Below, piece after piece: positions 4,133 to 22,037 of a stretch of 36,832 bases of DNA. The DNA lies in NCBI GenBank assembly GCA_022925895.1, contig JAKSYS010000627.1, positions 1 through 36,832 of the forward strand, in the 5' to 3' direction. Under the pieces are notes generated by a model. The model had not been told where the DNA came from and made no database searches. It worked only from the letters and a program-made list of their open reading frames with translations. How positions within the stretch are numbered: position 1 is the first letter of the stretch; each line of letters starts with the position of its first letter. Both the position numbers and the translations under genes were made by a program. Source of the DNA: Fragilaria crotonensis. Its lineage: Eukaryota; Bacillariophyta; Fragilariophyceae; Fragilariales; Fragilariaceae.

Positions 4133-4198
4133 CGGCAGCACGTAAAATAGATTTGAGGTTTTTTTTTACATAAACGAGATCCAACATGGTATTCATTA

Positions 4199-7100
4199 CT
4201 ATGTAGTTCGAAGAATTGGAACACAATTAACGCCGGGTGTCGGTAATGCTGTCTCCTGGGAGGTCAAAAACTTACAAAAAGATGCTTCAGAAGTATAAAT
4301 TTCTTCGATATACGCCTGAAAGGTACCGGAAACTTTTGCTTGGAGGAAGTTGTGCGAGAGTAATCGTCGCAATCTGCCCTTTACTGGGCAGCTGTTGCTT
4401 TCGTGCTTTGGGGCACCTGCTGCTCCTTTGAAAACCCAGCACTCACAGCACGCTCGGTTGTTCATGTAATCTTTTAAACGGGCAAAGTTTGCGATCATGT
4501 GTACTCACACCGCATGCGTAGTACATTTTCCATTGGAAACAAATGTCTTTGTTCTCTGGCAGAGTCTTACTTCCAGTTCCACGTAAGAGTGGTATTCCTC
4601 GACATGACGGTTTTCCACACACAAGACATGCCGTCGTCAATTGTAAGAGAACACGTCGCGCAGCACTTTCGTTCTTTCAGCATGTCGAATACGGTGAGTG
4701 GCCTCAGTTTGGAGATTTGTCAATGGAATGGTGCGACAGAAAGGACATGCTCCACAGTTGGCAAGCGTTTCTCTCCCAAATGAAGCGGACAAAATCTTGA
4801 TCGCACAACCCTTTGTCCTTGGGATGCATCGAATAACCAGTCGCGAACTGCGCATGATGTCATAACAGCTTTGAAATCACAATGGTCTTGTGGTGTCACA
4901 ATGTGTTCATTCAAGAGACGAGTGTATCGATACTCATCATCCCTTACGCGGTGGTCAGAAAGGTTGTCTGGTACAGCAAATAGGACTTGGCCAAACTCTT
5001 TTCGCATGCTCTTCCGTAATCGACCAAACAATTGAACAATCTGCATGGAGTCATACAAATAGCCGACACATACCAAATGTCTGCAGGAGGGATTTTCGTT
5101 GCCAACCAAACCCATTGTTGTTGAAATGAGAACATCCAACTGTCCTTTGCTCCATTCCTGTGGCACTTTGATTAACATCGTCATGAGTGGAGTCAGAGGA
5201 AACAAATTTGCATTTGAACCTATTGCTCAACTGTTCAAATAGAAGAATCCCATCCCTTTCTCAGCGACGACAATATGGACAGCTGCAAGTCCCCTTCCAG
5301 ATTCCAACTTTGTTTTAACAAAGTGAGCGGCGACATACACATAACGTGAAGAAATTGACACTTTGATTTCAAACCCTGTGGGAATTTGCCAACCACATGA
5401 TTCCCAAGGATAAGTTTGACGTCGCTGAGGTCATCGGTTCTTGATAAGCCAAGATGCCTTGCAAATCTTTTAACCATAAAAATTGAAGCGACCCACTCAA
5501 GACAACAATGGGAATACCCAGACTCGGGAGTTCTGAATAAACCTTGTATTTGTTGTCCCGGAACCTCATTTCAGATAGGATGGTGTGCACTTCGTCAATA
5601 ACAATTTTATCGACAACGTCCACCCAAGACTTGAGAACTTCATAGAACCACATGAACAAATTGCTGATGGCATCGAGGCTCAAAAAGACCAAGCTTGGGA
5701 GATTTTCTTTCTCCCGAGTTCTTCTGGTAGTGGGCCATCAGAGGTGATGTCCCGCCCCAAAAAACACAGATGTTTGACTTGAGGAAAGCTTCTCGAATGC
5801 CGTGGATGCCATTGCAAACTGATACCCAGCCAAGAAACGATATGGTGAAACATGGATGATTGTCTTTGGTTTGGTCGCAAGGTGGCGAGCAATAGTCGGA
5901 ATTATATACGATTCCGATTTGCCCTCACCTGGTGCTAGTAGAGCAAGACAGTGCTGGGGCTTGTTGTTTAACTCAGTACCATAGCCAAACTCAACCAACT
6001 CTTTCTGCTGCAGCGATAGATAGTGTTCATGGCCATTATTTGGACTTAGAAGTTGGATACCGAAGTCGCATTGCAGTGCGTAGGTCTGCCAAGGAAAGGC
6101 GTGATGGTGGATTGGGATATTAGATAGGACGTCTCCAATAGCACAATGATACGCATTAAAGTGTGCCTCTTCTGAACCAACTTGCTGGCTGGAATACGCA
6201 ATGGCATGTGTCGTTGAAGAATGACCCATTTTTGATGCCCCCATGGCACTCGCTGACAAGAACATGCCAGGTTGATGGCCACCACCGGTCACGAAGTTAG
6301 AAACACCAGCCCAAAAATGCCTTACTTGTGTCATGTTCGGAATCGCAGATAAAGAAAAAATGTCTCGGATGATATGTGATGGTTGAATGACGGAAGCATT
6401 AATCCTTGTCGGGAATATGAGATTATGATTGTTGTCACTGGTGTTACTGCAGAACATACTGCTTGCTTTCGTTTGGATCAGAGATCGAAACAACAAAAGT
6501 ATCTGGAGATAACTGGGGTAGCTTGCGCTCAATTTCTTTGCAAGTGCGTCGTGATGCGCTATTGAACCCTTTCAATGAAGAAAGTGTGTAATAGACCGTA
6601 CCATTTGTGTAGAGACAGTGGAACATGGTCGGATCGCGGAGCTCATTCAACCTTGCGGAACCACCACCGAAACCGTGGAAAGACATTTCAAAAGTGCCTT
6701 CAAATGGTCGAAACAATCCAGAGAGAAAAGTGAACCTTGTTTCCACACGGGACTCACATCTGCTAGAAAAAGGTCACCTGTGTCACAATCAACGTGGACC
6801 TTTATATTGGTCAGAACATCGATTACCGGTTTCCACCAAATTCCCTCTGCTAAGTTTGAAATTGCAACCTTCATCAAATAAACTGTCTTTGGAACAATTT
6901 GCGACCAGTCATCAAACAGAAAAGAAAACTGATCAACGACAATGTTCCCCTTTTCATCAAGTGTCGTCTTCCTCCTTTTGGGGAGTCTGCGGTGCATTTC
7001 ACGAATTTGGCGGAGCATAGGTGACAGAGAATGGATGACATGCGATTTTCTTACCGCCGTGATGAGAGCAGGACCGTGTAACGTGAACGCGTCTTCAGAA

Positions 7101-8277
7101 AACGAACATATAACGGAACAAATACCGGCTTTCAAAACAGATGTTACCTTAGCGATAAGCGAGGAAACAGTGTCACACGATATCATTTTGATTTTGGAAT
7201 CCTCTTTTTGGACACGGAATCCAGACATTAAACAGAATTCAACCGCCAATGGATGATGTTGCACTGAAGGTGGTATTTCAAGCATTAAATCCTTCAGAAA
7301 GTATGCAATTGAAAATCCATCTCTCTCGTTGAATTTCTTGTTGACAAACAGACCTCGTCGGAAGGAATATGCTAAAAGCTTTTTGAGTTCAATTAGTAAT
7401 GTAGATGGATCGTGTTGCATGGTGTATGTGCATCGTTGTGACACATCTTCAATTTCACCACCTTCAAATGTTTGCAAAGCAGCCCGAAGATCACCAGGTA
7501 CCATTTTTATGTTCTTCTGGGCATAGTTCAGAAGCCAGACTTCAGCAAGCTGGTGAAGTTTAACCAGGAATACCTCAGTTGATGGATTTGGTGGTGAATG
7601 GATCAAGTTGAAGTCAGTTTTGATTTTTCAATAAAGTGCCACCGCCACAGCCAAAAATAAGTGGGGTGAACATATGAGTATACGTGTCGTCCTGTCTTTC
7701 CCTTTGAGGTAGTAGTGGCAACAAAGCAGTTCTCGCCTCGCCGTAATCAAATTGTTCCGTGATGCGAGGTGCTTTGTTGAAGAAAGCTGAGACTTGGGCA
7801 TGGGAAACGTATCGACCACAGCAGAGTTTGATGAGTTCAACTTCCCAGCTGCAACTCATTGCAACCCATATTTTTGCAATGTCGAAGAGCGTTATCTTTC
7901 CTCGGAAAGACGGAACCGCAAGTGCACACATATCCTGTATAAGTTTTTTTGTCACTACGGTACGGCTCTATGGTGCAGGATTCCTTCGCAACGAGAACTC
8001 TTTTAGTAAATTCGTTCAACACAGAACGGACTGTAGACATTCTACTGTCCATGTGATGTTTTTTAAGGTGATCGCGGATGGATCTCTCTTCCATGTTGAT
8101 CATGTTGTGAGCATTGCATTGACGGCAGCAAAGGCCGAATGGTGAGAAAGTGAAAAGTTCTCGAATAGGATCAAGGGGGTCGATCTCTGTGCTTTGCACC
8201 AGAAGACGGACAGAAACAACAGGACTGATAATTCCGTTAACCAGCTTTTGTATTGGAGGAGAGCTTGATGATGGCAT
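4199..8277 (-). pseudogene. DExH (RecQ-like SF2) helicase gene, copy 1, near full length
   Basis: About 1350 codons spread over some ten frame segments. The start is taken at the ATG at 8277-8275, because other copies also begin about 60-100 bases from the non-coding element. The N-terminus has two zinc-finger-like stretches: FSPFGLCCRQC with HLKKHH, then CTCGSVFPRKDNALRHCKNMGC. Helicase motif I is APGEGKSES (about 5910-5936), motif II is VIDEVHT (DEVH, about 5580-5613), motif III is VVLSGS, and motif VI is QLFGRLRKSMR (about 5005-5044). The C-terminus carries NCGACPFC, a CLVCGKPSC pair and a CX2CX4HX4C knuckle (CGVSTHDRKLC, about 4480-4523). The order resembles fungal telomere-linked RecQ helicases with OrsD-like fingers; that comparison is from family knowledge. 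Some breaks may be homopolymer errors. Confidence 0.75.
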
Positions 8278-8340
8278 GATGGGAATGATGAGTTTGTTAT
8301 GGACAAGCCGTGATGTTTGTGTGCCTGTGTAATAAAGTCA

Positions 8341-8575
8341 GTCGGGAGCCGCGCCAATTTCGATAGTACCGAATTCTACTTGGATCGATCGTAACTCCCG
8401 ACGTACAAAATCGAGCTGTCTAACGTAGGAATCATTACTGGGGGATCCCTCTCGACGTACAAAAATGTCCCTCCCGACGTACAAAAATCACTCCCAACGT
8501 ATCTAATAAAAGTATCCATACCTGAGGATATATAATCTACATAGAAGCTCGCCCCCTTAGGGCCTTCTCCTTAGG
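8341..8575 (-). repeat. Element E1: 5' region of a helicase unit, ends CCTTAGG on + strand
   Basis: A 222-bp core (8341-8562) is identical to those at 9321-9542 and 10703-10924. On the + strand it holds several copies of a CTCCCGACGTACAAAA-type motif, then a core with CTAATAAAAGTATCC, CATACCTGAGGATAT and TAATCTA, then GCCCCCTTAGGG, then one extra CCTTCTCCTTAGG (8563-8575). On the - strand it sits about 64 bases upstream of the helicase ATG at 8277, so it may hold the promoter or 5' leader. Confidence 0.8.
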
Positions 8576-9257
8576 TGGTGAATGGATCAAGTTGAAGTCA
8601 GTTTTGATTTTTTCAATAAATTGTGTGCCACCGCCACAGCCAAAAATAAGTGGGGTGAACATATGAGTATACGTGTCGTCCTGTCTTTCCCTTTGAGGTA
8701 GTAGTGGCAACAAAGCAGTTCTCGCCTCGCCGTAATCAAATTGTTCCGTGATGCGAGGTGCTTTGTTGAAGAAAGCTGAGACTTGGGCATGGGAAACGTA
8801 TCGACCACAGCAGAGTTTGATGAGTTCAACTTCCTGCAGCTGCAACTCATTGCAACCCATATTTTTGCAATGTCGAAGAGCGTTATCTTTCCTCGGAAAG
8901 ACGGAACCGCAAGTGCACAAATATCCTGTATAAGTTTTGTCACTACGGTACGGCTCTATGGTGCAGGATTCGCCGCAGCGAGAACTCTTTAGTAAATTCG
9001 TTCAACACAGAACGGACTGTAGACATTCTACTGTCCATGTGATGTTTTTAAGGTGATCGCGGATGGATCTCTCTTCCATGTTAATCATGTTGTGAGCATT
9101 GCATTGACAGCAAAGGCCGAATGGTGAGAAAGTGAAAAGTTCTCGAATAGGATCAAGGGTCGATCTCTGTGCTTTGCACCGGAAGACGGACAGAAACAAC
9201 AGGACTGATAATTCCGTTAACCAGCTTTTGTATTGGAGGAGAGCTTGATGATGGCAT
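8574..9257 (-). pseudogene. Helicase 5' fragment, copy 1b
   Basis: This repeats the first 230 or so codons of copy 1, from the ATG at 9257-9255 through both N-terminal zinc fingers to HSPP, where it stops at the CCTAAGG end of E1. No helicase motor motif is included, so it cannot encode an active helicase. In one frame the coding sequence reads on into the element. Indel differences from copy 1 make some stretches cleaner here (for example the segment FIEKIKTDFNLIHSPP). Confidence 0.8.
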
Positions 9258-9320
9258 GATGGGAATGATGAGTTTGTTATGGACAAGCCGTGATGTTTGT
9301 GTGCCTGTGTAGTAAAGTCA

Positions 9321-9542
9321 GTCGGGAGCCGCGCCAATTTCGATAGTACCGAATTCTACTTGGATCGATCGTAACTCCCGACGTACAAAATCGAGCTGTC
9401 TAACGTAGGAATCATTACTGGGGGATCCCTCTCGACGTACAAAAATGTCCCTCCCGACGTACAAAAATCACTCCCAACGTATCTAATAAAAGTATCCATA
9501 CCTGAGGATATATAATCTACATAGAAGCTCGCCCCCTTAGGG
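9321..9542 (-). repeat. Element E2, identical to E1 core
   Basis: By eye all 222 bases match 8341-8562. On the - strand it lies 64 bases upstream of the ATG of helicase fragment 1b. The + strand end GCCCCCTTAGGG (9531-9542) is followed directly by the remnant at 9543-9576. Confidence 0.85.
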
Positions 9543-9576
9543 TATTATATCTATTTTTAGGCCCGCCCCCTTAGGG
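9543..9576 (-). repeat. Element stub E2b, 34 bp
   Basis: A 34-base remnant of the element end, TATTATATCTATTTTTAGGC on the + strand, then CCGCCCCCTTAGGG. It matches the last bases of E7 (14628-14661). On the - strand it is a unit that starts with CCCTAAGG and is cut after 34 bases, where the next CCCTAAGG (9542) begins. It is the shortest unit of the array. Confidence 0.7.
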
Positions 9577-9654
9577 CAATCAAAGTAGCTTGTATATTGG
9601 AAAACTTGAAATTGTATGAGATTTTTTACACAAACCCTTGACTCTATCCATTTT

Positions 9655-9900
9655 CTATAACATTTCAACACCTAACATTAACCCTATTGGTATTATGTTT
9701 ATCAACAGCAATAACCCAAACCTTATCAATCTTAACCAGAAATTCAACACTAACCCTAAACCTTATCAGTCTTGTTTAGTCTTCAACAATAACCCTAAAC
9801 CCTATCAGTCTTGTTAAATTTTTCAACAGTAATCCCAAACCCTATCAGTCTTGTACTAATTTTCAACACTAAACCCAAACCCTATCAGTCTTGTGAAAAT
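9655..9900. repeat. Telomere-like minisatellite in K unit 1
   Basis: About six degenerate units of roughly 40 bases of the form AACACTAACCCTAAACCCTA then TCAGTCTTG plus a T-rich spacer. The CCCTAAACCCTA part looks like one to two telomeric repeats (TTAGGG/TTTAGGG type). The same array occurs at 14790-15056. Short ORFs crossing it, such as the PNPISLV repeats, are products of the repeat and are not genes. Confidence 0.8.
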
Positions 9901-10157
9901 TTTTGTCTCCATTCTAATCTTATTAAAAAATTAATTCACTATATAGTCGGCAATCAGAAATATTCACAGTGTTACACATGTTTTTACATACAATCCTTAG
10001 TCATGTAGAGGTCTTATTTAGCACTTCAATACAAATATTGACTCTTATTAAGCTTTTTGTAACAAGAATGCACATGCGCCTGTAACTAAGCATGTTTGGA
10101 ATCACTTTTTTTTCATTCTCATAAATCCTGCATCGCTACACTTTTGCACTTTAGTGT

Positions 10158-10439
10158 TTGAAGTGGCATTGTGAATTGGATCCTGCTCACCATGATGTAC
10201 CAGGTAGCCGCAGAGCCGAGACCAATGACTGGAGGAACATGATTAATGCGACGGCATACATGATTCCTCCTATCATTGAGAAAATGGACACAGCTAGTCT
10301 GGACATCACAAATGGTACCAGAGCCCAGCTCCACGCCACTACACAGGACACCAAAGACAACTGGAAATGCATATGTGGCAGTAGGATCAATGCAATCAAG
10401 CAACACTCCTTCTGTTTAGCCTCTTTCATTAAGATGTAA
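10158..10439 (+). CDS. K-module ORF, copy 1
   Basis: A 93-codon frame sharing about 45 residues (HHDVPGSRRAETND, INATAYMIPPIIEKMDTASL) with ORFs at 15313 and 16906. The C-terminal part WKCICGSRI aligns with WKCILCGKMFNAIKQH of copy 2, a possible C2H2/BED-like zinc finger damaged here by a missing base. All three copies are preceded by the same 90-base block (about 10060-10157 here) with a TTTTTTTT run and a TTTGCACTTTAG stretch that could be a 3' splice site, so the true 5' exon may lie upstream. Function unknown. Confidence 0.45.
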   Translation: MKWHCELDPAHHDVPGSRRAETNDWRNMINATAYMIPPIIEKMDTASLDITNGTRAQLHATTQDTKDNWKCICGSRINAIKQHSFCLASFIKM

Positions 10440-10702
10440 GGACGTTGACTAAGTTTGAACACGTATGCTTATCAATTACTGATGAAGTTGCAAAGGAACT
10501 TGTAAACAAGCCAAGCAACCAAACAACGAACAAATGAATGAAGGTGACGAGTGAAGAGCAACAGTATCAAAAACAATAGACTAGTAGTATGCTCGTGGAT
10601 GATAGTATTGTTATCATTGTAAGGTCCTCATCAGCAACAATACATTTTGTTGCTAGTGATCCTGACAAGCCGTGATGTTTGTGTGCCTGTGTAATAAAGT
10701 CA
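10440..10702. other. Tail of K unit 1 joined to a helicase leader fragment
   Basis: Bases 10440-10663 match the region after K copy 2 (15580-15832) with gaps. At 10664 the sequence switches to 39 bases identical in type to the helicase leader at 8302-8340. The join thus removes everything from 25 bases upstream of the helicase ATG onward. No gene is visible here. Confidence 0.7.
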
Positions 10703-10924
10703 GTCGGGAGCCGCGCCAATTTCGATAGTACCGAATTCTACTTGGATCGATCGTAACTCCCGACGTACAAAATCGAGCTGTCTAACGTAGGAATCATTAC
10801 TGGGGGATCCCTCTCGACGTACAAAAATGTCCCTCCCGACGTACAAAAATCACTCCCAACGTATCTAATAAAAGTATCCATACCTGAGGATATATAATCT
10901 ACATAGAAGCTCGCCCCCTTAGGG
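10703..10924 (-). repeat. Element E3, identical to E1 core
   Basis: All 222 bases match E1 and E2 by eye. The + strand end GCCCCCTTAGGG (10913-10924) is followed directly at 10925 by helicase copy 2 coding sequence, entered at an internal codon. Confidence 0.85.
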
Positions 10925-11864
10925 ACTTCAAGCAACAAGTCCTTCAAAAAGTAGGGCACTGCAAAGGCATTGCTTGTGTCAAAGCCTCTCGATGCAAAGA
11001 GACCTCGTCTGTAAGAAAAGGATAAAAGCTTTTTCAACTCTGGAAGCAAACTCCGTGGATCGTGTTGCATTGTGTAGGTACAACGATGTGATATCTCTTC
11101 TATTTCACCACCTTCAAATGTTTGAAGTCCAGCGCGGAGATTGCCAGGAACCATCAATATATTTTTGCACGAACTTAAGGAGCCAATCCTCAGCATGCTT
11201 GTGGATTTGAACCAACAAGAACTCAGTTGATGAGCACGGTGATGAATGGATCGAAGAAAGTCGGATTTATCTTCTGGACAAATTGTTTGCCACCACCGCA
11301 TCCATGAATAAGGGGTGTAAACATATGTGTGCGTATGATCCTGTTTTTCCCTTTTGGAAGAATAGGAAAAAGCACAGCTCTTGCCTCACAATAATCAAAT
11401 TGCTGTTTTGAATTGTGTGGTGATTCGTTGAAAAATGAAGTGACTTTAGCATGAGTCACATACCTGCAGCAAAGCTTGATGAGATCAACTTTCTGTAGTT
11501 TTGAAGAATCACAACCCACAGTCTTGCAGTGTCGATTTGCATTTCCAATCTTTACAAAGGATTGACCACACACACAAGAAAATCCAGCATAGGTTTTGCT
11601 GTCGCTCCGATACGGATCGATACTTCCCAAAGCCTTTGCATGAAGTAGTTCCTTTTTATATTCTTCAAGGAGAGAACGGACTGTCGAAACCCTACTGTCC
11701 AAACCATGTTTTTTCAAGTGGCGGCAGATGCATCTCTCGTCCAACTCAACTGTTGCACAGTTGTTGCTTTGAAGGCAGCGAAGACCAAATGGAGAGAAGG
11801 AAAATAGTTCTCGAATGGATGAAAGATGATGGTCAATGCAATTGAATGTGTTGGATGATGTCAT
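10925..11864 (-). pseudogene. Helicase 5' fragment, copy 2
   Basis: About 310 codons of the helicase N-terminal region, with ATG proposed at 11864 (MTSSNTFN); an in-frame ATG at 11933 is possible but reaches the edge of E4. It contains FSPFGLRC, HLKKHGLDSR, then CVCGQSFVKIGNANRHCKTVGC, the same finger pattern as copy 1. One frameshift lies near 11230-11300. The homology ends at FLKDLLLEV, where the CCCTAAGG end of E3 begins, so all helicase motor motifs are absent. The sequence is clearly diverged from copy 1, unlike copy 1b, so this is an older or separate family member. Confidence 0.8.
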
Positions 11865-11944
11865 GGTGCGATCAGTTTGATGATTTGTTTTGTACAAGTG
11901 GTGATTCAGTGATGTTCCAAGAGCACAGACCATGTGTTACTTTT

Positions 11945-12167
11945 AAATTTAAACATTACTGAAGCTTACGGGGGTGTCCTGTGGCTCCTATGGTATATTT
12001 CCCTATTTGAAAAGTGGCTCCGATGGCAGAAATTTGGCTCCTGTGGTACTTTTCTCTAAATAAAATAGCTCCTGTGGTATCAAGTAAAAATATTTATATC
12101 TGAGGAATATTTATCTAGTTTGAACCCCGCCCCCTTAGGGCCTTCTCCTTAGGGCCTTCTCCTTAGG
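11945..12167 (-). repeat. Element E4 with three CCTTAGG ends
   Basis: It has the same architecture as E1 but a different tandem motif: GGCTCCTATGGTA, GGCTCCGATGGCA, GGCTCCTGTGGTA and AGCTCCTGTGGTA. The last is followed by the core (TCAAGTAAAA, then TATATCTGAGGA, then TTTATCTA). The end reads CCGCCCCCTTAGGG followed by CCTTCTCCTTAGGG and CCTTCTCCTTAGG. The three CCTTAGG copies are at 12133, 12147 and 12161. On the - strand it is just upstream of helicase copy 2. Confidence 0.75.
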
Positions 12168-12864
12168 CGGATATCTGTTTGACAGTATTCTCCAGGCTTT
12201 TATGCTTTCTCTCGAATTCTTTGGATTGTTTGAGAAGGGCAGTATCGATGAGCGATTGTAACGTCTCCGAGCGCAATTCAATATTCGAATCAATTTGCAT
12301 GGATGCCGTTTCAGTAGCTTTCGTAACAGTTTGTTCCGTAAAATATGCACCCAACTTCTGTTTAGAAGATTGGTAAGCAACAGAGACAAAATATTGTTCC
12401 ATCGGTGTGTGGACGAAGCGTTGGATCTTAAGAAGGATTTCACCCGGTGGGTTTGTTTCCTCAATAAGAGAAGTGCAGTCCGCGAGCGATGCTGGGTTAT
12501 TAATCCAGCCTCTATCAAGAACCCTGGGGTCTTGAGTAGGGAAACGAGATGCGAGAACTTTTGAGAATTCGTCGCGTGTACAGAGTTCCTTGCTTGCATT
12601 CCTCCGTTCGTTCAACATACAAAGTAGAAAGTGAACTTTGTAGTCGCTTGGATCGGCAGACTTGGCAAGCAGAGAAGTGGAACAGATATGTGTTAAAAGA
12701 GAGACGAATCTTTGAACGACAGTATCATGTAGTACTTTCACTTCAAGTTCCGCTGCTTTGTGGATGAGGACCACGCGAGCACTATCTTGATAAGTAGTGA
12801 CCACAGTCTTCATAGATTCACGAAGAGCGAGGGCTTCAGGATGATCGGTCGCGTCGTTGGACAA
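12163..12864 (-). CDS. Unknown 233-residue ORF, 3'-truncated at element E4
   Basis: An uninterrupted - strand frame from a TTG at 12864 (in-frame sequence continues about 60 bases upstream without ATG) to a TAA at 12165-12163. The stop codon is supplied by the CCTAAGG end of E4, so the native 3' end is missing. The product is charged and rich in predicted helix (ELEVKVLHDTVVQRF, LKQSKEFERKHKSLENTVKQ), with a likely coiled coil at the C-terminus. No enzyme motif was recognised. A Gag-like structural protein of a mobile element is one possibility, based only on helix content and context. Confidence 0.5.
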   Translation of the reverse strand: MSNDATDHPEALALRESMKTVVTTYQDSARVVLIHKAAELEVKVLHDTVVQRFVSLLTHICSTSLLAKSADPSDYKVHFLLCMLNERRNASKELCTRDEFSKVLASRFPTQDPRVLDRGWINNPASLADCTSLIEETNPPGEILLKIQRFVHTPMEQYFVSVAYQSSKQKLGAYFTEQTVTKATETASMQIDSNIELRSETLQSLIDTALLKQSKEFERKHKSLENTVKQISA

Positions 12865-12867
12865 AAC

Positions 12868-13607
12868 GAGTAGAGTAGATAATCTGATGCTTCTTGGAAT
12901 GAATGAGGATCTTCAAGTCGATGTAGCGTAGATTTCTTTGTAGCAACAGTTGTAATTCAAAAGTTCGATACATAACGGGGTGAAGAATGATTTTCTTTAG
13001 AATCGTGCGACGCAAGTGCTTGAGTGATCGACGATTTTGCAGCGTTTGCTGGGGTAGTAATCGGATCTTGATTCTTTTTCCAGCAGCGAGTGCTGGGTTG
13101 GAGAGGGACTTTTGTTTGTTGCGCTGGTCGCAGGATTAGACATGGTGGAATGTAGGTTAGGGTAAAAGTGGAAGAAATACATGTGTCCGATCAAACGATA
13201 TTTAGAGAAGTGACAACTAACAAGTCTTTTATGTTTAAGACTTTCGCTGGATGCTTCGTCAGGCTGAGTTGTGAGATTGTCAGAACAAAAAATGCAAAAT
13301 AGGATTGCGGACAATGGCGAGGAAAAGGCGAGGTGTATCGCTTAAAACGATAACGTCTTTGTGACGTGTCGTGATAGCGATACTTAGCCAAAAAACTCGC
13401 GGTGGACGTTAGAAAGCGACTCCGGTGTTCGCAATGACGCGTTAGTCGGCGTCAGCGAGGCAATTGGCGAATCTAGTCGTGAAACGTGATAGGGTAACAG
13501 ACAGATAAGCGGAGTAACATTGTGGAACGTCACCTTGTGGAGCTAGGGTTGTCACGTTTGTCACGGGTTAAGGTGACGTTGTGACAAAAAGTTCCGTGCA
13601 TGGACCA
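12868..13607. other. Region with a possible N-terminal exon, otherwise no gene seen
   Basis: A short - strand frame (about 13143-12997) starts MSNPATSATNKSPSPTQHS, is rich in S/T/P and could be a displaced 5' exon of the 12163-12864 ORF, but no confident link was found. From 13320 to 13607 nothing coding, no tRNA and no clear repeat is visible. Confidence 0.4.
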
Positions 13608-13980
13608 CGAATTTCGAGTTTTCAATCACGAATGGCATGGCCACCAACTTCGCATTTCACACCGTAACTTCACTAAAAATAGACCAATTCTTAATCTGAA
13701 ACGACGAACGTTGAGAATGGGACAAGGCGAAGAAAGTTGTACATCGGGTCTTCGAACGAAACGTACCCACTGAGGCTGAACACAGCCATAAGAACGACGA
13801 AATTCGAGTTTTCAGTTGTGACTGGTATTTCCTCCAGCTTCACATTTCATACTGTATCTTCGCTAAAAATAGACCAATTTTGAATCTGAAGTAATAGTCG
13901 TTGAGACAGCTTCAAAGCGAAGAAAGTTGTATAAGAGGTCTTTGAACGAAATAAACCTGATGAGGATGAAAACTCAATCA
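13608..13980. repeat. Diverged tandem duplication, 190-bp period
   Basis: Bases 13608-13797 and 13798-13980 align along their length, sharing CGAGTTTTCA, CTAAAAATAGACCAATT, GCGAAGAAAGTTGTA and TTTGAACGAAA/CTTCGAACGAAA blocks. Divergence is clearly higher than between E1, E2 and E3. No ORF spans both copies. Confidence 0.75.
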
Positions 13981-14104
13981 TCAAGTGGTCTTCATGGTAG
14001 TTAGAGTAGTGCCGACGAGTGCACAAGAAGAAAATTGGGCAGCAAAGTATAAGTGAGCATACCAGGTTGTACATACTTCAAAGCACTTTTGACAATCCTC
14101 AACA

Positions 14105-14250
14105 TGGTACATAAATCTACGGGGATGTTCAGTACAAAGAAATCTCTCCGGACGTACCTCCGAACGTACAACGACGCCCTCGCAACGTATCAAGTAAAAA
14201 CATGCATACCTGAAGCTTTTTTATCTATATTTTCGGCCGCCCCCTTAGGG
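14105..14250 (-). repeat. Element E5
   Basis: Tandem motifs CTCCGGACGTAC, CTCCGAACGTAC and CTCGCAACGTA precede TCAAGTAAAAACATGCATAC, CTGAAGCTTTTTTATCTA and GCCGCCCCCTTAGGG (ends 14250). Read on the - strand it leads toward the 190-bp repeats and the unknown ORF at 12864-12163. The head boundary at 14105 is approximate. Confidence 0.7.
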
Positions 14251-14493
14251 CGAACGTCAAACGCTGATAACGTCATATTTCGGTCAACGGTCACTTTCAT
14301 AGCTAGCAAGTAAATTCCTCGCGGATCTCCGGGTTCGCCGGGATGGGGTACACACTTGAGTCCGTACGGTCTCAGGACGGTGACAACCCGATAATTAGGT
14401 TTCGTTTTGTTTTAAAAACACCACCAGTGGTATCAAGTAAAAGCATTCATACTTGAAGACTTTTTATCTAGAAACAGCCCCTTCTCCTTAGGG
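14251..14493 (-). repeat. Element E6 and short 3' segment
   Basis: The core of the element is at 14410-14493: CACCACCAGTGGTA, TCAAGTAAAAGCATTCATAC, TTGAAGACTTTTTATCTAG, then CCCCTTCTCCTTAGGG. The part 14251-14409 has no recognised gene or repeat and ends against the CCTTAGGG of E5. No gene is carried. Confidence 0.65.
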
Positions 14494-14661
14494 AACGCGG
14501 CGTAGCACCCGACGTACACGTCTCTAAATAAAAGTGACACACGACGTACAAAAAGTGACATCCACCGTACAAATCCTAAGTTAAAAATGACACCCGTCGT
14601 ATCAAGTAAAAGTATCTATATCTGTGGATATTTTATCTATTTTTAGGCCCGCCCCCTTAGG
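14494..14661 (-). repeat. Element E7
   Basis: The motif series reads CACCCGACGTAC, CACACGACGTAC, CATCCACCGTAC and CACCCGTCGTA, with CTAAATAAAA and CTAAGTTAAAA spacers. The core AAAGTATC ... GATATTTT and CCGCCCCCTTAGG follow. The unit contains no gene; it is cut directly by the end of E6. Its last 34 bases equal the stub at 9543-9576 apart from a few changes. Confidence 0.7.
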
Positions 14662-14789
14662 AGCATGAACATATTCAAGAAGGAAAGTATGAGACGAGCA
14701 GAGTAGCTTGTAAATCAGAAAAGTTGAAATTGTATGAGATTTTTTACACTAACCCTTAACTCTATCCATTTTGTATTACATTTCAACAC

Positions 14790-15056
14790 CTAACATTAAC
14801 CCTATTGGTATTGTGTTTATCATCAACAATAACCCAAACCTTATCAGTCTTAGAAAGAATTCCACACTAACCCTAAACCCTATCAGTCTTATTTTGTTTT
14901 CAACACTAACCCCAAACCCTATCAGTCTTGTTTTGTTTTCAACACTAACCCCAAACCCTATTAATCTTGTTAAATTTTTCAACAGTAACCCCAAACCCTA
15001 TCAGTCTTGTATTAATTTTCAACAACAAACCCAAACCCTATCAGTCTTGTGAAAAT
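14790..15056. repeat. Telomere-like minisatellite in K unit 2
   Basis: Six or so units of about 40 bases with AACCCCAAACCCTATCAGTC and a T-rich spacer, homologous to 9655-9900. The units are more regular here. Four consecutive units carry CCAAACCCTA or CTAAACCCTA. Confidence 0.85.
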
Positions 15057-15312
15057 TTTTGTTTCCATTCTAATCTTATTAAAAAATTAATTCACTTTTT
15101 AATCGGCAATCAGAAATATTCACAGTGCTACACATGTTTTTACATACAATCCTTAGTCATGTAGAGGTCTTATTAAGCACTTCAATACAAATATTCACTC
15201 TTATTAAGCCTTTGTAACAAGAAAGCACATGCGCCTGTTACTAAGCATGTTTGGAATCACTTTTTTTTCTTTCTCATAAATCCTGCATTGCTACAGTTTT
15301 GCACTTTAGTGC

Positions 15313-15675
15313 TTGAAGTGGCGTAGTGAATTGGACCCTGCTCACCATGATGTACCAGGTAGCCGCAGAGCCGAGACCAATGACTGGAGGAACATGATTA
15401 ATGCGACGGCATACATGATTCCTCCTATCATTGAGAAAATGGACACAGCTAGTCTGGACATTGCAAAGGGTAGCAGAGCCCAGCTCCACGCAACTACACA
15501 GCACACCAAAGACAACTGGAAATGCATTTTATGTGGGAAAATGTTCAATGCAATCAAGCAACACTCCTTCTCTTTAGCCTCATTGACTAAGTTCGATCAC
15601 GTATGCCTATCAATTACTAATGAAAATGCAAAGGAACTTGTGAACAAGCCAAGCAACCAAGCAACAAACAAATGA
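15313..15675 (+). CDS. K-module ORF, copy 2
   Basis: A 120-codon frame with the K module (HHDVPGSRRAETNDWRNM, INATAYMIPPIIEKMDTASL), then WKCILCGKMFNAIKQH and FDHVCLSI. C-x2-C with a following H and C suggests a small zinc finger of C2H2/BED type, hence possible DNA binding; this is an inference. The downstream 300 bases match those after copy 1. The conserved leader block is at about 15220-15312. It may be an exon of a spliced gene rather than a complete protein. Confidence 0.5.
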   Translation: MKWRSELDPAHHDVPGSRRAETNDWRNMINATAYMIPPIIEKMDTASLDIAKGSRAQLHATTQHTKDNWKCILCGKMFNAIKQHSFSLASLTKFDHVCLSITNENAKELVNKPSNQATNK

Positions 15676-16030
15676 ATGAAGGTGACGAGGAACACTTAAA
15701 TGATGACAAGCAATTAGGCAATGGAAAACAATAGACTGGTAGTGTTGAATAATTACGGAGTATCGTTATGGATGATAGTGTTGTTATGATTGTAAGGTCC
15801 TCATCGACAACAATACCTTGTGTTGCTAGTGATCCTGTCGTCCTCATCGTATAGTTGCCTTCATCCTTGTGGTTGCTAGCTTTAGTAGCGACTCGCTTGT
15901 AATGTTGTTGATAACCTGGAGTGTCACCTGCATAGCAAGGTGTTGTCAATAATGTGTAGTGTCTCCTTTGTCACAAGGTGAAGCGTCGTCGTCGCGAGGT
16001 GAACGAAGCAATGAACAAACGATTGAACAA
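15676..16030. other. Tail of K unit 2, no gene seen
   Basis: Partly shared with 10520-10663. Antisense ORFs here are short and not supported by any motif. It ends where E8 homology begins (GGCGCATGATTTTCAGTATT). Confidence 0.5.
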
Positions 16031-16372
16031 AGAAACTGGCGCATGATTTTCAGTATTGAATTCTACGGAGACGATCCGTAACTCCCGATGTACAAGTTTG
16101 AAATTGTGTCATAGGAATCATTACTAAGTTATCCCTCCCGATGTACCTCCGGACGTACAACAAAAAGCATTACCAGGATTGTTCACACTGCATTGGTAGT
16201 ATGGAGCTCGGTACCACCAGTGGTATATGATGCTAATTAAAAAGGCCCACCAGTGGTACAAAAATATACACCGGAGGTATGTGATCCTAAATAAAAACAC
16301 CACCAGTGGTATCAAGTAAAAGCATACATACTTGAAGACTTTTTATCTAGAAACAGGGCCTTCTCCTTAGGG
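16031..16372 (-). repeat. Element E8
   Basis: The first part resembles the head of E1 (GAATTCTAC, CCGTAACTCCCGATGTACAA, AGGAATCATTACT). From 16155 it switches to a block (AAAAGCATTACCAGGATTGT and on) that recurs at 16512, with CACCAGTGGTA-type motifs. It ends AAACAGGGCCTTCTCCTTAG GG at 16372. E8 therefore looks like a recombinant of two element subtypes. Confidence 0.75.
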
Positions 16373-16432
16373 AGAGAAAGTGAAAAGCATTACTGGTTCA
16401 ACCTCAATAGTTGCATTTGTTTTTGCAGACAT
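16373..16432 (-). pseudogene. Helicase 5' fragment, copy 4 (about 20 codons)
   Basis: On the - strand an ATG at 16432-16430 opens a frame beginning MSAKTNATIEVEPV and reaching FTFSP, the start of the FSPFGL finger seen in the other helicase copies. It then meets CCCTAAGG, which supplies TAA as a stop. The ATG lies about 80 bases from the head of E9, the same spacing as in copies 1, 1b and 2. It is too short to encode a functional protein. Confidence 0.65.
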
Positions 16433-16511
16433 GATGATGATGGGGTGTGATAGATTTTTTGCATGGCGAGTCCAATGGAATACTCACTCTTTTTTTGAAA
16501 AATTGTCTACA

Positions 16512-16721
16512 TAAAAGCATTACCAGGATTGTTCACAGTGCATTGGTAGTATGGAGCTCGGTACCACCAGTGGTATATATTGCTAGTTAAAAAGGCCCAC
16601 CAGTGGTACAAAAATCTACACCGGTGGTATGTGATCCTAAATAAAAACACCACCAGTGGTATCAAGTAAAAGCATTCATACTTGAAGACTTTTTATCTAG
16701 AAACAGGGCCTTCTCCTTAGG
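16512..16721 (-). repeat. Element E9
   Basis: A near-identical direct repeat of 16155-16372: GGTACCACCAGTGGTATATA, CCCACCAGTGGTAC, ACACCGGTGGTA, CACCACCAGTGGTA, then the core and CCTTCTCCTTAGG ending at 16721. GTACCAC-CA-GTGGTAC can form a short hairpin. Confidence 0.8.
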
Positions 16722-16905
16722 TTTCATGTATGTGCATTGAATGTGGATACTAATTAAATTGTTAGCAAATTAAGTCTTACTAAAAATTTATTACTTACAA
16801 ATATTCTTGACAAGAAAGCAAATGCGCCTGTAACTAAGCATGTTTGGAATCACTTTTTTTGGTTTCTCATTAATCCTGCATCGCTTCTGTGTTGCCCTTT
16901 AATGT
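16722..16905 (+). other. Leader of K unit 3
   Basis: Bases 16808-16905 match the blocks upstream of K copies 1 and 2 (GCAAATGCGCCTGTAACTAA, GCATGTTTGGAATCAC, T run). The minisatellite present in copies 1 and 2 is absent, because this unit joins the CTTAGG of E9 nearer the ORF. TTTGTACTCTTGTAG at 16904-16919 could be a 3' splice site. Confidence 0.5.
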
Positions 16906-17430
16906 TTGTACTCTTGTAGCGAAATGGACGCTGCTCATCATGATGTACCAGGTAGCCGCAGAGCCGAGACCAATGACCGGGGGGACATGATTAATGCGAC
17001 GGCATACATGCTTCCCCCTATCATTGAGAAAATGGACACAGCTAGTCTGGACATCGGGAATGGTGGCAGAGCCCAGATCCACATGAATACACACAGCAAA
17101 GAATACTCAGATGATGATGTAAGTGATGACAATCCCAATCCCAAGAAGGGGTTCCAGCATGTCTACAAGTCGAAGACAAATTCGAGTCACAGAGTGATGG
17201 TTGCACACGACGCATCGACGACAAAAGGTACGCCAAATAGCAAGCTGGGCAAACGAGATAATAAGAAGTCAAAGAAAATCGCCAGCCTTCAGGAGGTGTT
17301 GCCATCAAATGTGCACGCAATGGGAAGGTCATTCTTGAGCACGCGCCCTGTGTTTTATAGTGGGACACCCAGGAGAAGTCTCCCAATCCCATTGACAATG
17401 GCATTATGCTTTCAGCAATGGAAGATCTAA
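16906..17430 (+). CDS. K-module ORF, copy 3, upstream of the dioxygenase
   Basis: A 174-codon frame. The first 55 residues are the K module (MDAAHHDVPGSRRAETND, IIEKMDTASLDIGNG). After that it departs fully from copies 1 and 2 and becomes acidic then basic (SDDDVSDDNPNPKK, KLGKRDNKKSKKIAS), a pattern of a disordered, possibly nuclear-targeted region. From about 17330 another frame is more plausible (through DNGIMLSAMEDLK at 17393-17431), and that frame approaches the dioxygenase ORF. One or two single-base shifts, or an intron starting at the GTAATC after AAG near 17431, could join the two. Confidence 0.5.
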   Translation: MYSCSEMDAAHHDVPGSRRAETNDRGDMINATAYMLPPIIEKMDTASLDIGNGGRAQIHMNTHSKEYSDDDVSDDNPNPKKGFQHVYKSKTNSSHRVMVAHDASTTKGTPNSKLGKRDNKKSKKIASLQEVLPSNVHAMGRSFLSTRPVFYSGTPRRSLPIPLTMALCFQQWKI

Positions 17431-17458
17431 AGGTAATCGACACCATTTTGGAGCCAGA

Positions 17459-18184
17459 ATGGAGTCTGCTGCTGGTGACACTGTGTTTACCTTGATCCCC
17501 CGTCACGATGCAATCCATAAAATGACACATGTGAAAAAGACAATTGCTTCTCTGTATGCCTTAGATGATGCGAAGCGAGCAGCTGAAGTGCGTGGAAAGA
17601 CTCGAATCACAGTGGCGGAAGACAATGGCAAGTATGTGACAGTGGGCTTGAAACCAAACCGAGGCTCTGTGGGCGTTTCTGAGATCTGGCCGCAGAAATT
17701 GAACATTGCTGACAGGAACTCAATTAGAAAGTTAATGGCACGTTGTGAGGAAGCTGCCAAGGGCTACATTCCATCAAACGAACTCCGTGGTCTGCGCATT
17801 GCACAAGTACTTGGTGAGTGGAAGGAGATCAGTGGAGTGTCCTCCAATCCAATCTGGGGAAGTCTTGCTTGTGGGCGGAACTACTATTTGAATTCCCACG
17901 TTGATGAGGATTTCTTTTATTCTTTGACAACCGTTACTTCTGAGCACGGACTGCAACAAGACATTGACAGGTACAGCATGGATGCTGATGTCAGTAACTA
18001 TTTCACTTTTGCTGAACAAGGAATCGCTGTTGCATTGAGACCAGGTGACATGCTGATTTTCAATCCGCTGTATCACCACTGTTTGTCCTCTCGTACTTCT
18101 GCATTTCAAAGTGTGGATGTCTTTTGTTTGTCCTTGTACCTGAAGACGGCTGTGGTTGGTAAGAATGATAATAGTTTGAATTAG
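17459..18184 (+). CDS. 2-oxoglutarate/Fe(II) dioxygenase-like protein
   Basis: A clean 241-codon frame. The facial triad of the double-stranded beta-helix fold can be read as H147-x-D149 (NSHVDEDFF) and a distal H206 or H207 (FNPLYHHCLSSR), with R212 placed to bind 2-oxoglutarate and PGDMLIFNP before the distal H. This is known of the superfamily; the substrate is unknown. The N-terminal 120 residues show no motif. The frame probably continues an N-terminal part carrying the K module. It is the only long frame in the array without an obvious break. It lies convergent to helicase copy 3, with a minisatellite between. Confidence 0.6.
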   Translation: MESAAGDTVFTLIPRHDAIHKMTHVKKTIASLYALDDAKRAAEVRGKTRITVAEDNGKYVTVGLKPNRGSVGVSEIWPQKLNIADRNSIRKLMARCEEAAKGYIPSNELRGLRIAQVLGEWKEISGVSSNPIWGSLACGRNYYLNSHVDEDFFYSLTTVTSEHGLQQDIDRYSMDADVSNYFTFAEQGIAVALRPGDMLIFNPLYHHCLSSRTSAFQSVDVFCLSLYLKTAVVGKNDNSLN

Positions 18185-18261
18185 CTCTGTTTTAGTAGTT
18201 GTGTGTTTACAGGTGCAAACAATCTGGATGATTGTTACGCACTTCATGGTTACTTGATAAT

Positions 18262-18533
18262 ATTCCAGTGCCCCGCGTTCCCCGGTTGACGGACAGTAAA
18301 TCTCCGCAGGGCTACTCGAACAAAACATTCCAGTGCCCCGCGTTACACGGTTGGCGGACAGTAAATCTCTGCGGGGCTACTCGAACAAGACATTCCAGTG
18401 CACCGCGTTACACGGTTGACGGACAGTAAATCTCTGCGGGGCTACTCGAACAAAAACATTCCAGTGTCCCGCGTTCCCCGGTTGACGGACAGTAAATCTC
18501 CGCAGGGCTACTCGAACAAAACATTACAGTGCC
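18262..18533. repeat. 65-bp minisatellite, four units plus a partial
   Basis: Units start at 18262, 18327, 18392 and 18458, with a partial at 18523. Each runs ATTCCAGTGCCCCGCGTT, CCCCGGTTGACGGACAGTAA, ATCTCCGCAGGGCTACTCG, AACAAAAC. Units differ at a few positions (CCCC/ACAC, CCGCA/CTGCG). There are no unique spacers. It separates the dioxygenase stop from the helicase stop. Confidence 0.9.
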
Positions 18534-18554
18534 TTCCAACAACTTAGCTCTTCT

Positions 18555-19399
18555 CTAAATAGAATTATTTTTTGTATTGTAAGTACTATCAATCACAGCC
18601 ATGAACTCACAGAACGAGGTCGAGGAAGTGTAGATACCCTCAAGGAAGTCCTTGAATGATCCCTTAACCTTGGTGTTAACAAAATGATGTGACAACAACC
18701 GCCTCAACCTACCCTTTACTTCACAATCTGTCTTTGCGTGATGTTTAGAGCCTGGTACCTTTTTGAAAACCCAACACTCACAACAAGCCACATTATTCAA
18801 ATAGGTCTTATCAAAACAAAGCTGGCGGTCATGAGAACTCACACCGCATTGATAACAGTTTTTCCAGAGGAAACAACAACCTTTATTCTCAGGCAGTGAT
18901 TTGCTGCCCTTCCCATTCAATAAGGGGATTCCACGACAATAAGTCTTGTTGCACGCAAGACAACACAAAGCGAGCTTTTGAAGGACTCGTTCAATCGCTT
19001 GTTCGTTTCGCCTTTCAGTTGCCATCCGTTTGGTGGCCTCAGCCTGAGCATTATGGGTTGGAATGTGGCGACAAAAATGGCAAGCACCGCAATTCTCCAT
19101 CTCTTTTCCAAATGACTGTGACATAACCTTCAATGCACAGTCACGGTTTCCTGATGCTGCATCCATGGTCCAGTCACGTACACCGCCCGAAGTCATTGTT
19201 TGTCTAAAAAGTGCATGATCCCCCTCAGATACAAGGTTTTCATTCAGAAGCCTTGTGAATCGCTGTTCATCGTCCTTGATTCTTCGTTTTGACAAGGCTT
19301 CTGGTGCCGCAAAGAAGATTTGGCCGCTAGGAATTCTCATGTACTGTCGAAGACGACCAAACCCTTGAATAACCTGCATAGCATCGAACATGTACCCCG
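18555..19399 (-). pseudogene. Helicase copy 3, C-terminal part
   Basis: An open - strand frame of about 278 codons that continues the helicase interrupted by Copia-1. It begins GYMFDAMQVIQGFGRLRQ (motif VI Q-x2-G-R, about 19345-19399). It runs through FTRLLNENLVSEGDHA, NCGACHFC, CCLACNKTYC, the CX2CX4HX4C knuckle CGVSSHDRQLC (about 18812-18855) and CCECWVFKK to a stop at 18557-18555. No frame break is seen, in contrast with copy 1, so this is the best view of the family's C-terminal zinc region. Confidence 0.8.
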
Positions 19400-19553
19400 T
19401 GAACGAATTCTACTGTGTCTGCGTCATATTGGGCTACGGCCAGACCAAGTGGGGTTTCTCCGGACTTAGTTTATAATCTTGTTCTATCCTAATCACTAAT
19501 GCCATGCTGCCCCACAATGATGGATTTCCAGTAGTAACGGTAGGTTTTATTCA
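19400..19553 (+). repeat. Copia-1 5' LTR
   Basis: 154 bp from TGAACGAATTCTACTGTG to GGTAGGTTTTATTCA, identical to 26388-26541. It is short, as in several diatom Copia lineages. Confidence 0.95.
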
Positions 19554-19569
19554 GTTTATCAGACCCAGC
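19554..19569 (+). promoter_or_regulatory. Copia-1 primer binding site (half-tRNA type)
   Basis: GTTTATCAGACCCAGC starts at the base next to the LTR. Its complement GCTGGGTCTGATAAAC reads as the 5' strand of an anticodon stem followed by a seven-base loop CTGATAA (T33, anticodon GAT as written). It does not match a tRNA 3' end. It is therefore likely primed by a tRNA cleaved in the anticodon loop, as known for Drosophila copia with initiator tRNA-Met. Confidence 0.55.
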
Positions 19570-20666
19570 ACTCACGTGTTGGCACGCAAAAGGACTGGCG
19601 TGAATGATCTGGAGGGAACAGAACATTCGTCCTTGCAAACGAGCGCGTTGTAGTTCAACTGTGAAGGCGGGACGACAAAGTACAGTCGTCGGACCGGTGA
19701 TCTCAACTTCACACTACCCGATTAGCAGCGAAGGATCGTTCGCAAAACGGTAGCGGGAGTAGCTCTCCCGACGTAATCGTGCAGACCATAACCGTCGTGC
19801 TGACGAACGGTTTTGTCGACGATTGGATCGGTCATGTTCATCATGACGACCGTTTCCAGGAGCGGAAGTGCCCAGTTCAGCCTGGGAAGTGGCGTCTGCG
19901 ACGGCAGATGATGCCGCGAAAGGGACACCGAGCGGCAAAGGAATAGCCGGACACCATGAGGCCAGGGAGGTCAGAAAGGACATGGTTGGGCGAAACGGCG
20001 ATCACAGCTACGCTGCGGTCATCCGTTCCTCGAAGATTCGAGAGGAATCGCCTGGGGTCATGATTCCGATCGTGGCCACGACCAGGGTTCCAAATTGCAG
20101 CCTAAGTCTTGAAGGAACAAGATTGGAAAGCTCTTTAGAACCTTGGGGGAATTGACTGGTGACTGCATAGCCCTAGCTAACCTGGAGGGTTGCCGGGAGG
20201 TCATGCAGCGCAGGCTAAGTGGCACGGACAATTAATGTCTAAGTAAAGTGCTGCGTCGGACGTTTTCTAAGTGATTTTAACGTTACGGATTTTACTTAAG
20301 GAATCAAGTCCCGAGGATGGTCGTTAGCGAGCGGTTAGGGCAATACTGAGTTTTTATTCTGTGCAGTCGAATGAGTCGAATGGCACATGTGGCAGCGTTA
20401 CACACGCCAATCATGCGTAACGCACGCACGATGACGCGAATGTGAAACGCATCTACGTGTGGGCCGGTACAAACGCACGGCGATGCATGAAATGCACTGA
20501 GAAACTCCAGGAATGTCCTGACATACTATGACCTACGTAAATGCTACGTATAAAACTCGCGGATGATCCCAAACAATTGGCGACGAGTTTGTTTGTGGAA
20601 ATATCACAATATTCCAATAAAACAACTCAAGAAGGCACTTTTCCCAACATTCCAACATCTTCGACC
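19570..20666 (+). other. Copia-1 5' leader
   Basis: About 1.1 kb between the primer site and the first gag ATG. Small frames on both strands lack motifs. GAGGAATCGCCTGGGGTCAT and similar stretches show no repeat structure. Nothing else seen. Confidence 0.5.
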
Positions 20667-22037
20667 ATGGACGACGACGAGCAGTCCGAGGAGTTCACCG
20701 AGGCACTCGTTTACATCGGTTTCAACAGGGTCACCGCAGAGGCGATCGTTGCGCAGGGATTTACTTCCCCGTTGACGCTTCTGACCGTCTCTGAAGACAG
20801 TCTCTCCGATGACGAGGCAGGTTGCAAGGAACAACCCACGCCAAGGAGTTAACTTTCCCTTTGTCAGCGTTAACCTCCTTAAAGGTTTTCGCCATTGACT
20901 GCGTCGCAGATTCGATGTGGACTCGAGGCGAACTCGGAGGATTTCTCGAGGGCCAAGGCAGAGGAGGCGGTGGATAGGATGCAGGAGGAGAAGAAGTTGC
21001 TGGATGGCATGGATGCCATGACTCCAAGGAAGCCGGAGGTGCTCAAGAACCTCAGCTTGTGGGTTAAGTGGTGGGAGTCATGGGACAATTACATCTACCA
21101 CTTCCGAGCTGAGGCGAGATGCCCGTTGTCCTACATTCATCGAGCGCACACGGAGGTGACGAACGAAGTGCGGGACGTCGAGTACGATGATTTGGACGAC
21201 CATTTGGTCAACAATACCGTGCTCGAAGGCCAACATTACGCCATCGACAACAAGCGATACTATGCAGAGTTCAAGAGTTATATCTCGGACGGACCTGGTT
21301 GGACCTTTATCAAGCACTTTGACGCCAAGAAGGATGGTCGCGGCGCAGTTCTTGCTCTCAGGAAGCAGTGTGAGGGCGAGAGCGCTAACATGACTATCAA
21401 GGCGAAGGCTTATGCGAAGCTCGGTGCGTCCCAGTTTACTGGACATCGACGCAATTGGACGTTTCAGCATTATGTCCAAGCTCACCAGGAAGCTCACGCT
21501 GAACTGGAGCTGGTGGGTGAGGCCGTTCCCGAGACGAAGAAGGTTCAGGATTTCTTGGCGAACATCAAGGATCCGACTCTGCAGATGGGTGTGACGCATT
21601 GCTTTGGTGAGCCTGAGAAGCTCAAGTCGTTTGAAAGCTGTCAGCAGTATCTTTCGACGCTAGCGACGACGACGCGGGCCTACAAGGATGCTGGGAGTGC
21701 GGCAAGGAGCGTGAGCTCCGCGTCGACCGGCGCAGGTTCCAAGTCGTCGGGTGGCAAGGGAACCAAACGCAAGGGTGGCAAGAAGCAAGCAAACACCAAA
21801 GGTTACTCCAATGAGGAGTGGTGGGCTATGTCTGATGCCGAGCGGGCTGCGGTCGTTAAGGCACGCAAGGAAGCCGGCGGCAAAGGAAGAAGAAAGCCAA
21901 GAAGGAACGCCAAGCTTCTGTCTCTGGGGTTGATTCCGGGGACGGAAACGGGGACGGTAATGCCCGACTCCAACGTCAGCGTCCGCGAACGCAGGCGACC
22001 AGTTTGGGAGGAGAGCCCATTCTGGTGGGAGTGGTAA
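20667..22037 (+). pseudogene. Copia-1 gag region
   Basis: The first ATG of the polyprotein is at 20667 (MDDDEQSEEFTEALVYIGF), a small helical N-terminal domain typical of these elements. The frame is lost near 20810-20895, then resumes as a long frame to 22037. That frame carries KWWESWDNYIYHF, a helical capsid-like core, KYSNEEWW-type and lysine-rich segments (KRKGGKKQ). No CCHC knuckle is visible. At the C-terminal end another frame (KKERQASVSGVDSG) is equally plausible, so a further shift near 21890 is likely. The product packages element RNA. Confidence 0.75.

Follow-up and report, generated by a model that had tools for sequence, protein, structure and literature searches.

HeT-A/TART and the Terminons of bdelloid rotifers are added to chromosome ends with their fixed end facing inward and their truncated end facing outward, and the helicase of the subtelomeric Y' elements of yeast reads toward the telomere. 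According to the passages on Y' in PMC13177704, these helicase-encoding elements stand in tandem at chromosome ends, are gained by recombination, and give rise to RNA that Ty1 can copy; interstitial telomere tracts precede about half of the Y' units and separate 62% of them, and not all yeast junctions have such tracts. For fungi, the relevant sections of PMC7473861 and PMC12857005 describe TLH, genes for RecQ-like helicases that lie close to telomeres in multiple copies, some of them truncated, and the sections on MoTeR/FoTeR elements in PMC7367193 and PMC12857005 describe a 5' end that is often truncated and faces the terminus, with seeds of 1-4 nucleotides (nt) at healed ends. Telomere-directed mobile elements and subtelomeric helicases have so far been described apart or side by side. 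Here, we describe a repeated module of the freshwater diatom Fragilaria crotonensis in which a helicase gene would itself be part of what is added to chromosome ends, with a simple joining rule at GG. The analysis starts from contig JAKSYS010000627.1 (C588; assembly GCA_022925895.1, 62.1 Mb, 881 contigs), which in its entirety forms the window of 36,832 bp and holds an array of truncated units. The plastid contig of this assembly encodes an rbcL protein of diatom type. On balance, we read this array as a record of former chromosome ends, built by a chromosome-end module that was added end-first to receding ends.

The window contains CCTTAGG at 13 sites, all on the + strand between 8555 and 16721, where 1.91 would be expected and none of 100 shuffles reached 13. 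Ten of these sites terminate the pattern WATCTA-N15-CCTTAGG inside a conserved element of about 63-80 bp (for example the 63 bp at 8499-8561, + strand), and the remaining three terminate stubs of 14 bp. The original prediction, made from the window alone, had described unit ends of one orientation that share CCTTAGG in a head-to-tail array, each unit with one fixed and one variable end; this description was borne out, and the layout is best explained by repeated addition. The pattern also served as a signature for a search of the whole assembly, which copies with a changed terminus escape. It was found at 80 sites (37 on the + and 43 on the - strand) on 30 contigs, and the reversed pattern at none. 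Random orientation across the genome had been named beforehand as a finding that would speak against the predicted array; instead, a single orientation holds on each of the 17 multi-copy contigs (67 sites). Spacings between sites have a median of 1,768 bp; 10 of 50 do not exceed 400 bp, a figure that includes two duplicates in C783.

Telomere tracts, sought as exact TTAGGG and TTAGGGG forms, terminate the left ends of four unit-bearing contigs (C23, C490, C592, and C754), and C411 begins in telomere-junction repeats resembling those of C490. The telomere lies on the variable side of the units on all four tract-bearing contigs (9/9 sites, + strand) and on C411 (5/5 sites, + strand). The constant end CCTTAGG thus faces the centromere and the variable end faces the telomere. 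At the cut end of one C411 helicase unit stands an interstitial CCCCTAA tract of three copies in telomere-left sense, as expected if this unit was formerly a tip. On C427, which has no units by the pattern, telomere-type repeats occur at 70402-70628 and 97119-97150, in opposite orientations and about 26 kb apart.

C411 carries a complete module, which spans the 7.4 kb between the telomere junction and a constant end at position 7,568. Counted from the tip, it consists of the telomere junction, distal repeats, the K gene, the helicase gene (reading toward the telomere), a 5' region, and CCTTAGG. Inner copies have retained CCTTAGG as their end and are truncated on the side of the telomere. The gene adjoining the constant end encodes a RecQ-like helicase with 38 matches in a protein search, of which the best relatives (1,329-1,370 aa) share 71-74% identity across about half of the query. 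The homologue P0001 has DEAD and Helicase_C domains, and the name 'superfamily II DNA helicase RecQ' is given to some of the relatives. Among the 50 helicase matches listed for the assembly, from 34 of 190 candidates scored, helicase and units occupy opposite strands, so that the helicase reads toward the telomere, on all 19 contigs with both, and four further contigs have a helicase match without a signature site. On C490, C592, and C754, too, the stretch from the outermost signature site out to the telomere holds a helicase that reads in the direction of the telomere.

The distal parts of the module are also shared. Past the helicase stop, at least 2.7 kb are 99% identical in C592, C783, and C84, and more than 1.8 kb are 98-99% identical in C121; the distal parts of C490 and C754 have more than 2 kb in common at 99.8%. 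Complete ends with a shared terminus, which the original prediction had listed against itself, are therefore found in part, as the outer copies have distal sequence in common up to the telomere. Judged by sequence, what we call K represents the distal portion of the helicase module: window positions 16824-19399 match C592 at 97.4% identity, and in C411 the K open reading frame (ORF; 429 aa, + strand, L081:1746-3032) lies between the repeats and the helicase gene, with which it is convergent. The K protein family has 159 matches (120 listed) and no Pfam match above cut-off. No reverse transcriptase (RT) domain was found in homologues of the helicase or of K, and a search of the PDB by sequence gave no match for P0001 and only matches at E of at least 0.12 for the K ORF. 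When ten further proteins were compared with Pfam, P0001 matched, and a C389 protein did so only below cut-off. Long ORFs of unknown kind occupy distal parts of the terminal modules (L080:1-2244 in C490, L050:2286-3998 in C754, and L048:3648-5998 in C592), those of C592 and C754 without a Pfam match above cut-off, and an ORF near the C783 array has a glycosyltransferase family match in Pfam.

The joints between units follow a short rule. Within the loci examined, an uncut counterpart was sought for each of the 73 distinct flanks to the right of constant ends, and 24 flanks had a good one, taken as the best per flank with an alignment that begins at base 1 and an identity of 85% or more. Of these 24 counterparts, 21 carry GG precisely at the cut, and A precedes it in 14 of the 24; for the remaining 30 offsets between -15 and +15 the count is 0-4 of 24, save for 13 at +1 (GGG). 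It becomes 19 of 21 at the cut without the tandem repeats J40 and J49 and without J61, which has the same flank as J27. With looser starts, i.e., for the 39 of 73 flanks with a counterpart of at least 60 aligned bases beginning within base 6, GG was present in 32. Of 38 flanks that had no good counterpart at first, 19 were searched against the whole assembly and 12 had a counterpart listed at the flank start. Five junctions were read from this set after the rule had been formulated (from seven loci, minus L093, which is another unit copy, and L096, which repeats L095), and all five have GG (TTAGG, CTCGG, TAAGG, CATGG, and CTCGG). Inserted bases were not seen at the joints of the 24 counterparts, an absence that is favoured and partly built in by the alignment from base 1. 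The 14-bp stubs (8562-8575, 12140-12153, and 12154-12167) correspond to the final 14 bp of a GGGCCTTCTCCTTAGG-type end cut at its own AGG/G (the stroke marks the cut), and they fit the rule because this end carries AGGG at a distance of 14 bp from its terminus, which is where the cut lies.

Sequence on the telomere side of the joints appears to have been lost. In C23, the one case followed as far as the telomere, the unit that ends at 3,690 truncates an RT gene, and nothing in the 3.7 kb from this junction to the telomere end of the contig matches the rest of the gene at E 1. C588 and C592 have a common older module that was cut at 16722 and 16824, respectively, before units were added. A search upstream of 28 junctions, for which the left context was often only 1-1.5 kb, gave six matches of at least 98% (J0, J37, J39, J40, J46, and J64), which we read as neighbouring copies or tandem repeats and not as the missing flank. 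Together, these three results favour repeated end loss and addition over insertion.

In the end-first addition that we propose, a chromosome end would recede or break, and its outward 3' strand ending in CC(C) would pair with AGG(G) at the fixed + strand 3' end of the module; the module would then be joined end-first and the new tip capped by telomerase. Our preferred, unproven intermediate is a + strand RNA with the 3' end ...CCTTAGG, copied by an RT supplied in trans, and we give this template about an even chance. Such a template would account for the fixed end, for truncation on the outer side, and for the surplus of short units; early stops, each followed by re-priming at a GG on another RNA, would readily yield the very short units and the stubs. 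Within the conserved element, the heptamer CYTGARG can pair with the terminal CCTTAGG of its own copy, with G.U pairs when the + strand is read, where the opposite strand would have A.C. As a hint of a + strand RNA this is weak, since the search pattern itself dictates one of the two sides and one position also shows A.C on the + strand (10/48). RNAalifold returned no fold for the + strand of the conserved element (0.0) and a trivial fold for its - strand. Many copies have an inverted repeat, TCAAGTA...TACTTGA, at about -60 to -37 from the terminus, which overlaps the heptamer able to pair with the terminus.

As a possible autonomous RT partner we considered a non-long terminal repeat (non-LTR) element on C411 (about 15.86-21.2 kb, L059:862-6290), which has an RT by Pfam, endonuclease and RNase H by reading, and TTAGGGTTAGGG in its 3' region. 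It was rejected as an ordinary insertion with a target duplication of 14-16 bp, for which C121 has the empty site with one 14-16 bp copy. The genome-wide RVT_1 search is no control for the absence of an RT from the C411 module, because no match was listed on C411, C588, or C23:1-6000 despite the RT frames present there. Many strong RVT_1 matches were found on C880, which we presume may be organelle group II introns.

Several observations weigh against end-first addition. No RT gene was found in the C411 module (1-7568), its frames of at least 150 aa being the helicase, the K ORF, and two in the repeats, and the preferred template RNA would be antisense to the helicase. No right-end telomere was found next to units, so that the polarity rests on five contigs; the outermost units are nearer to the other contig end in 9 of 30 cases, among them C273, where the outermost unit is 155 kb from the expected end and 34 kb from the other. 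A two-copy TTAGGGG within a C551 unit points the opposite way, and 8 of 50 spacings exceed the 7.4 kb of the complete module. GG is missing in 3 of the 24 counterparts, namely J41, J49 (a tandem repeat), and J3, in which the best-scoring copy is one G short and GG is present in 24 of 26 copies. More diverged counterparts often do not have GG (3 of 9 with GG for J17, 4 of 9 for J39), as would be expected if one particular copy was cut. Lastly, different units are joined to one flank at the identical base in two cases (12139 of the window and C783; C23:1490 and C122:30232), which exchange between constant ends explains as well.

The most serious alternative is capture at the DNA level, in which a terminal module, linear or broken off, with a fixed CCTTAGG end (produced, e.g., by cleavage at CCTTAGG), or a copy primed by microhomology from CCTTAGG, would be joined via AGG(G) to receding chromosome ends without any RNA. 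This proposal accounts for the same GG junction data. It also fits the recurrence of the C588 block 12140-14661 in C783 (97.3%) with different neighbours on both sides, the near-identity (98-99%) of 1.8-2.7 kb of distal module sequence on four contigs, and two modules that have lost most of the helicase gene between its ends: near 15.0-15.8 kb of C411, P0001 residues 1-70 adjoin residues 1229-1349, and in C23 the last 57 residues adjoin the 5' region. However, it requires a fixed donor end across about 70 distinct junctions (73 flanks) and does not predict the excess of 14-400 bp units, and we regard it as possible but unlikely. The shuffling seen at constant ends and the two-base identity at the joint could also reflect site-specific recombination, with chromosome tips exchanged between CCTTAGG and any GG; a GG core is known from IS607-type serine recombinases. 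Only one half-site is conserved, however, and PF00239 (Resolvase), the one recombinase family searched, gave no match in the assembly at E 0.001 with one candidate scored, which makes this explanation improbable.

GG targets in combination with a fixed end would likewise be left if transposons or gene cassettes had simply inserted at GG sites and had later been arranged in rows. Neither a second fixed end nor a target duplication was seen; target duplications, together with terminal inverted repeats, had been named in the original prediction as marks of an ordinary DNA transposon. Uniform polarity toward the telomere is not predicted by insertion, the upstream part in C23 is gone up to the telomere, and the six upstream matches are not read as the missing flank. 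We therefore consider insertion very improbable. Integron-like cassettes at existing CCTTAGG sites were rejected as a candidate: the innermost flank on C23 is an RT gene, and no signature site lies beyond it in the 302-kb contig. The mechanism first proposed for the array, in which sense RNA is primed on a TTAGGG overhang and copied to an RNA 5' end encoding CCCTAA, remaking a telomere, agrees with an end that is fixed at the 5' side in gene sense. However, the telomere is on the other, variable side on all five contigs with both, GG is instead common to the joint and the cut sequence, and in the loci examined no tract of at least two telomere repeat copies lies directly at a constant end, where a telomere-like terminus should have been regenerated; this mechanism is extremely improbable. 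The accompanying claims that 3' ends are lost, contrary to long interspersed nuclear elements (LINEs), and that truncation is opposite to that of Terminons hold in gene sense only. With the telomere as reference, it is the telomere-side sequence that is missing, as in known telomeric retroelements, and the truncation is the usual one.

Read from its outer end, the array begins with a unit (4202-8561, - strand) composed of a RecQ-like helicase gene with broken frames, a 5' untranslated region (UTR), and the constant end CCTTAGG at 8555-8561; window positions 6003-8562 match C411 at 98.8% identity. The first 14-bp stub (8562-8575, + strand) is followed by a truncated helicase unit of about 230 codons (8576-9541, - strand, constant end 9535-9541), whose uncut counterparts at window position 7592 and in C411 carry TTTGG before the cut (uncut sequence TTTGG/TGGTGAA). 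A 34-bp stub (9542-9575, + strand) retains only the terminal part of the conserved element. The next unit (9576-10923, + strand) is a chimaera of K1 sequence joined near 10665 to a helicase 5' UTR plus constant end. The right end of K1 had been singled out as an exception, and indeed K sequence here meets the helicase 5' UTR without a constant end; a helicase fragment of about 20 codons was not confirmed, as by our reading the helicase part of this unit is 5' UTR only. A truncated helicase of a second family (about 310 codons, 10924-12139, - strand, constant end 12133-12139) has GG at the cut in 24 of 26 uncut counterparts. It is followed by the other two 14-bp stubs (12140-12167, + strand) and a unit with an ORF of unknown kind (12163-12864, - strand), 190-bp repeats, and a constant end at 14243-14249 (unit 12168-14249, + strand). 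Two short units on the + strand measure 243 bp (14250-14492) and 169 bp (14493-14661, with TACGG before the left cut in the uncut counterpart). Gene-less stubs of 34, 168, and 243 bp had been predicted; the first and last lengths are correct and the middle one is 169 bp.

The K2 unit (14662-16371, + strand, constant end 16365-16371) and a 350-bp unit (16372-16721, + strand, constant end 16715-16721, with AAAGG before the left cut in the uncut counterpart) complete the array. Beyond it lies K3 (16722-18540, + strand), the distal part of the older module, with 65-bp repeats and two + strand ORFs (16906-17430 and 17459-18184) that correspond to the single 429-aa frame in C411. The helicase gene of the older module (18555-29601, - strand) is split by an LTR retrotransposon at 19400-26541 with LTRs at 19400-19553 and 26388-26541, and C592 has the same helicase without the insertion. 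A second LTR retrotransposon is located beside this gene at 29609-36714; the repeat pairs of the two (at least 154 and 300 bp) are 100% identical, and we take both elements to be Copia-like. Non-LTR type RT and RNase H frames (by reading) occupy 231-4129 on the + strand, in a sense opposite to the RT gene cut in C23, and one of these frames had no RVT_1 match at E 1. Ten window ORFs had no match in Pfam, and the window had none in Rfam or in a plasmid collection.

It is tempting to propose, tentatively and as somewhat less probable than not, that the module represents a new mobile class, a complete chromosome-end cassette with a helicase and without RT or transposase that moves by end-first addition, its fixed single-stranded 3' end (...CCTTAGG) pairing with 2-4 bases at any receding end. 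A literature search found no description of such a module in diatoms, which is not proof of absence. If true, a damaged chromosome would acquire a ready-made subtelomere in a single step, and its former ends would stay readable in the sequence, so that such a record could reveal the rates at which ends are lost and renewed in diatoms. It would also link subtelomeric helicases with chromosome-end repair and bear on why RecQ-like helicases sit at many chromosome ends.

With yeast Y' the module shares helicase-encoding elements that stand in rows at chromosome ends. In contrast to Y', the diatom units are truncated and joined at GG, with a telomere tract at a unit end once and no telomere-tract junctions encountered. 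Like the TLH and Y' types, it places a superfamily II/RecQ-like helicase in multi-copy elements by telomeres, and the diatom modules reach the telomere; it differs from fungal TLH in its diatom host and in a precise, mobile proximal end with the GG rule, the likeness being one of gene kind. MoTeR/FoTeR elements have the same inward constant end and outward truncated copies, but they encode an RT and sit in telomere repeats, whereas no RT was found in the diatom module and its joints are non-telomeric. The diatom units resemble Terminons in their common orientation, with the fixed end toward the centromere and the truncated end toward the telomere, but the Penelope-like RT of Terminons was not found in the C411 module, and this polarity would call for an RNA to which the helicase is antisense, which sets the module apart from both Terminons and HeT-A/TART. 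LINEs differ in that no RT was found in the C411 module and target-site duplication was not seen. The module acts like HeT-A, Terminons, and MoTeR and carries the kind of gene known from Y' and TLH, and there is a fair chance that it forms a class of its own.

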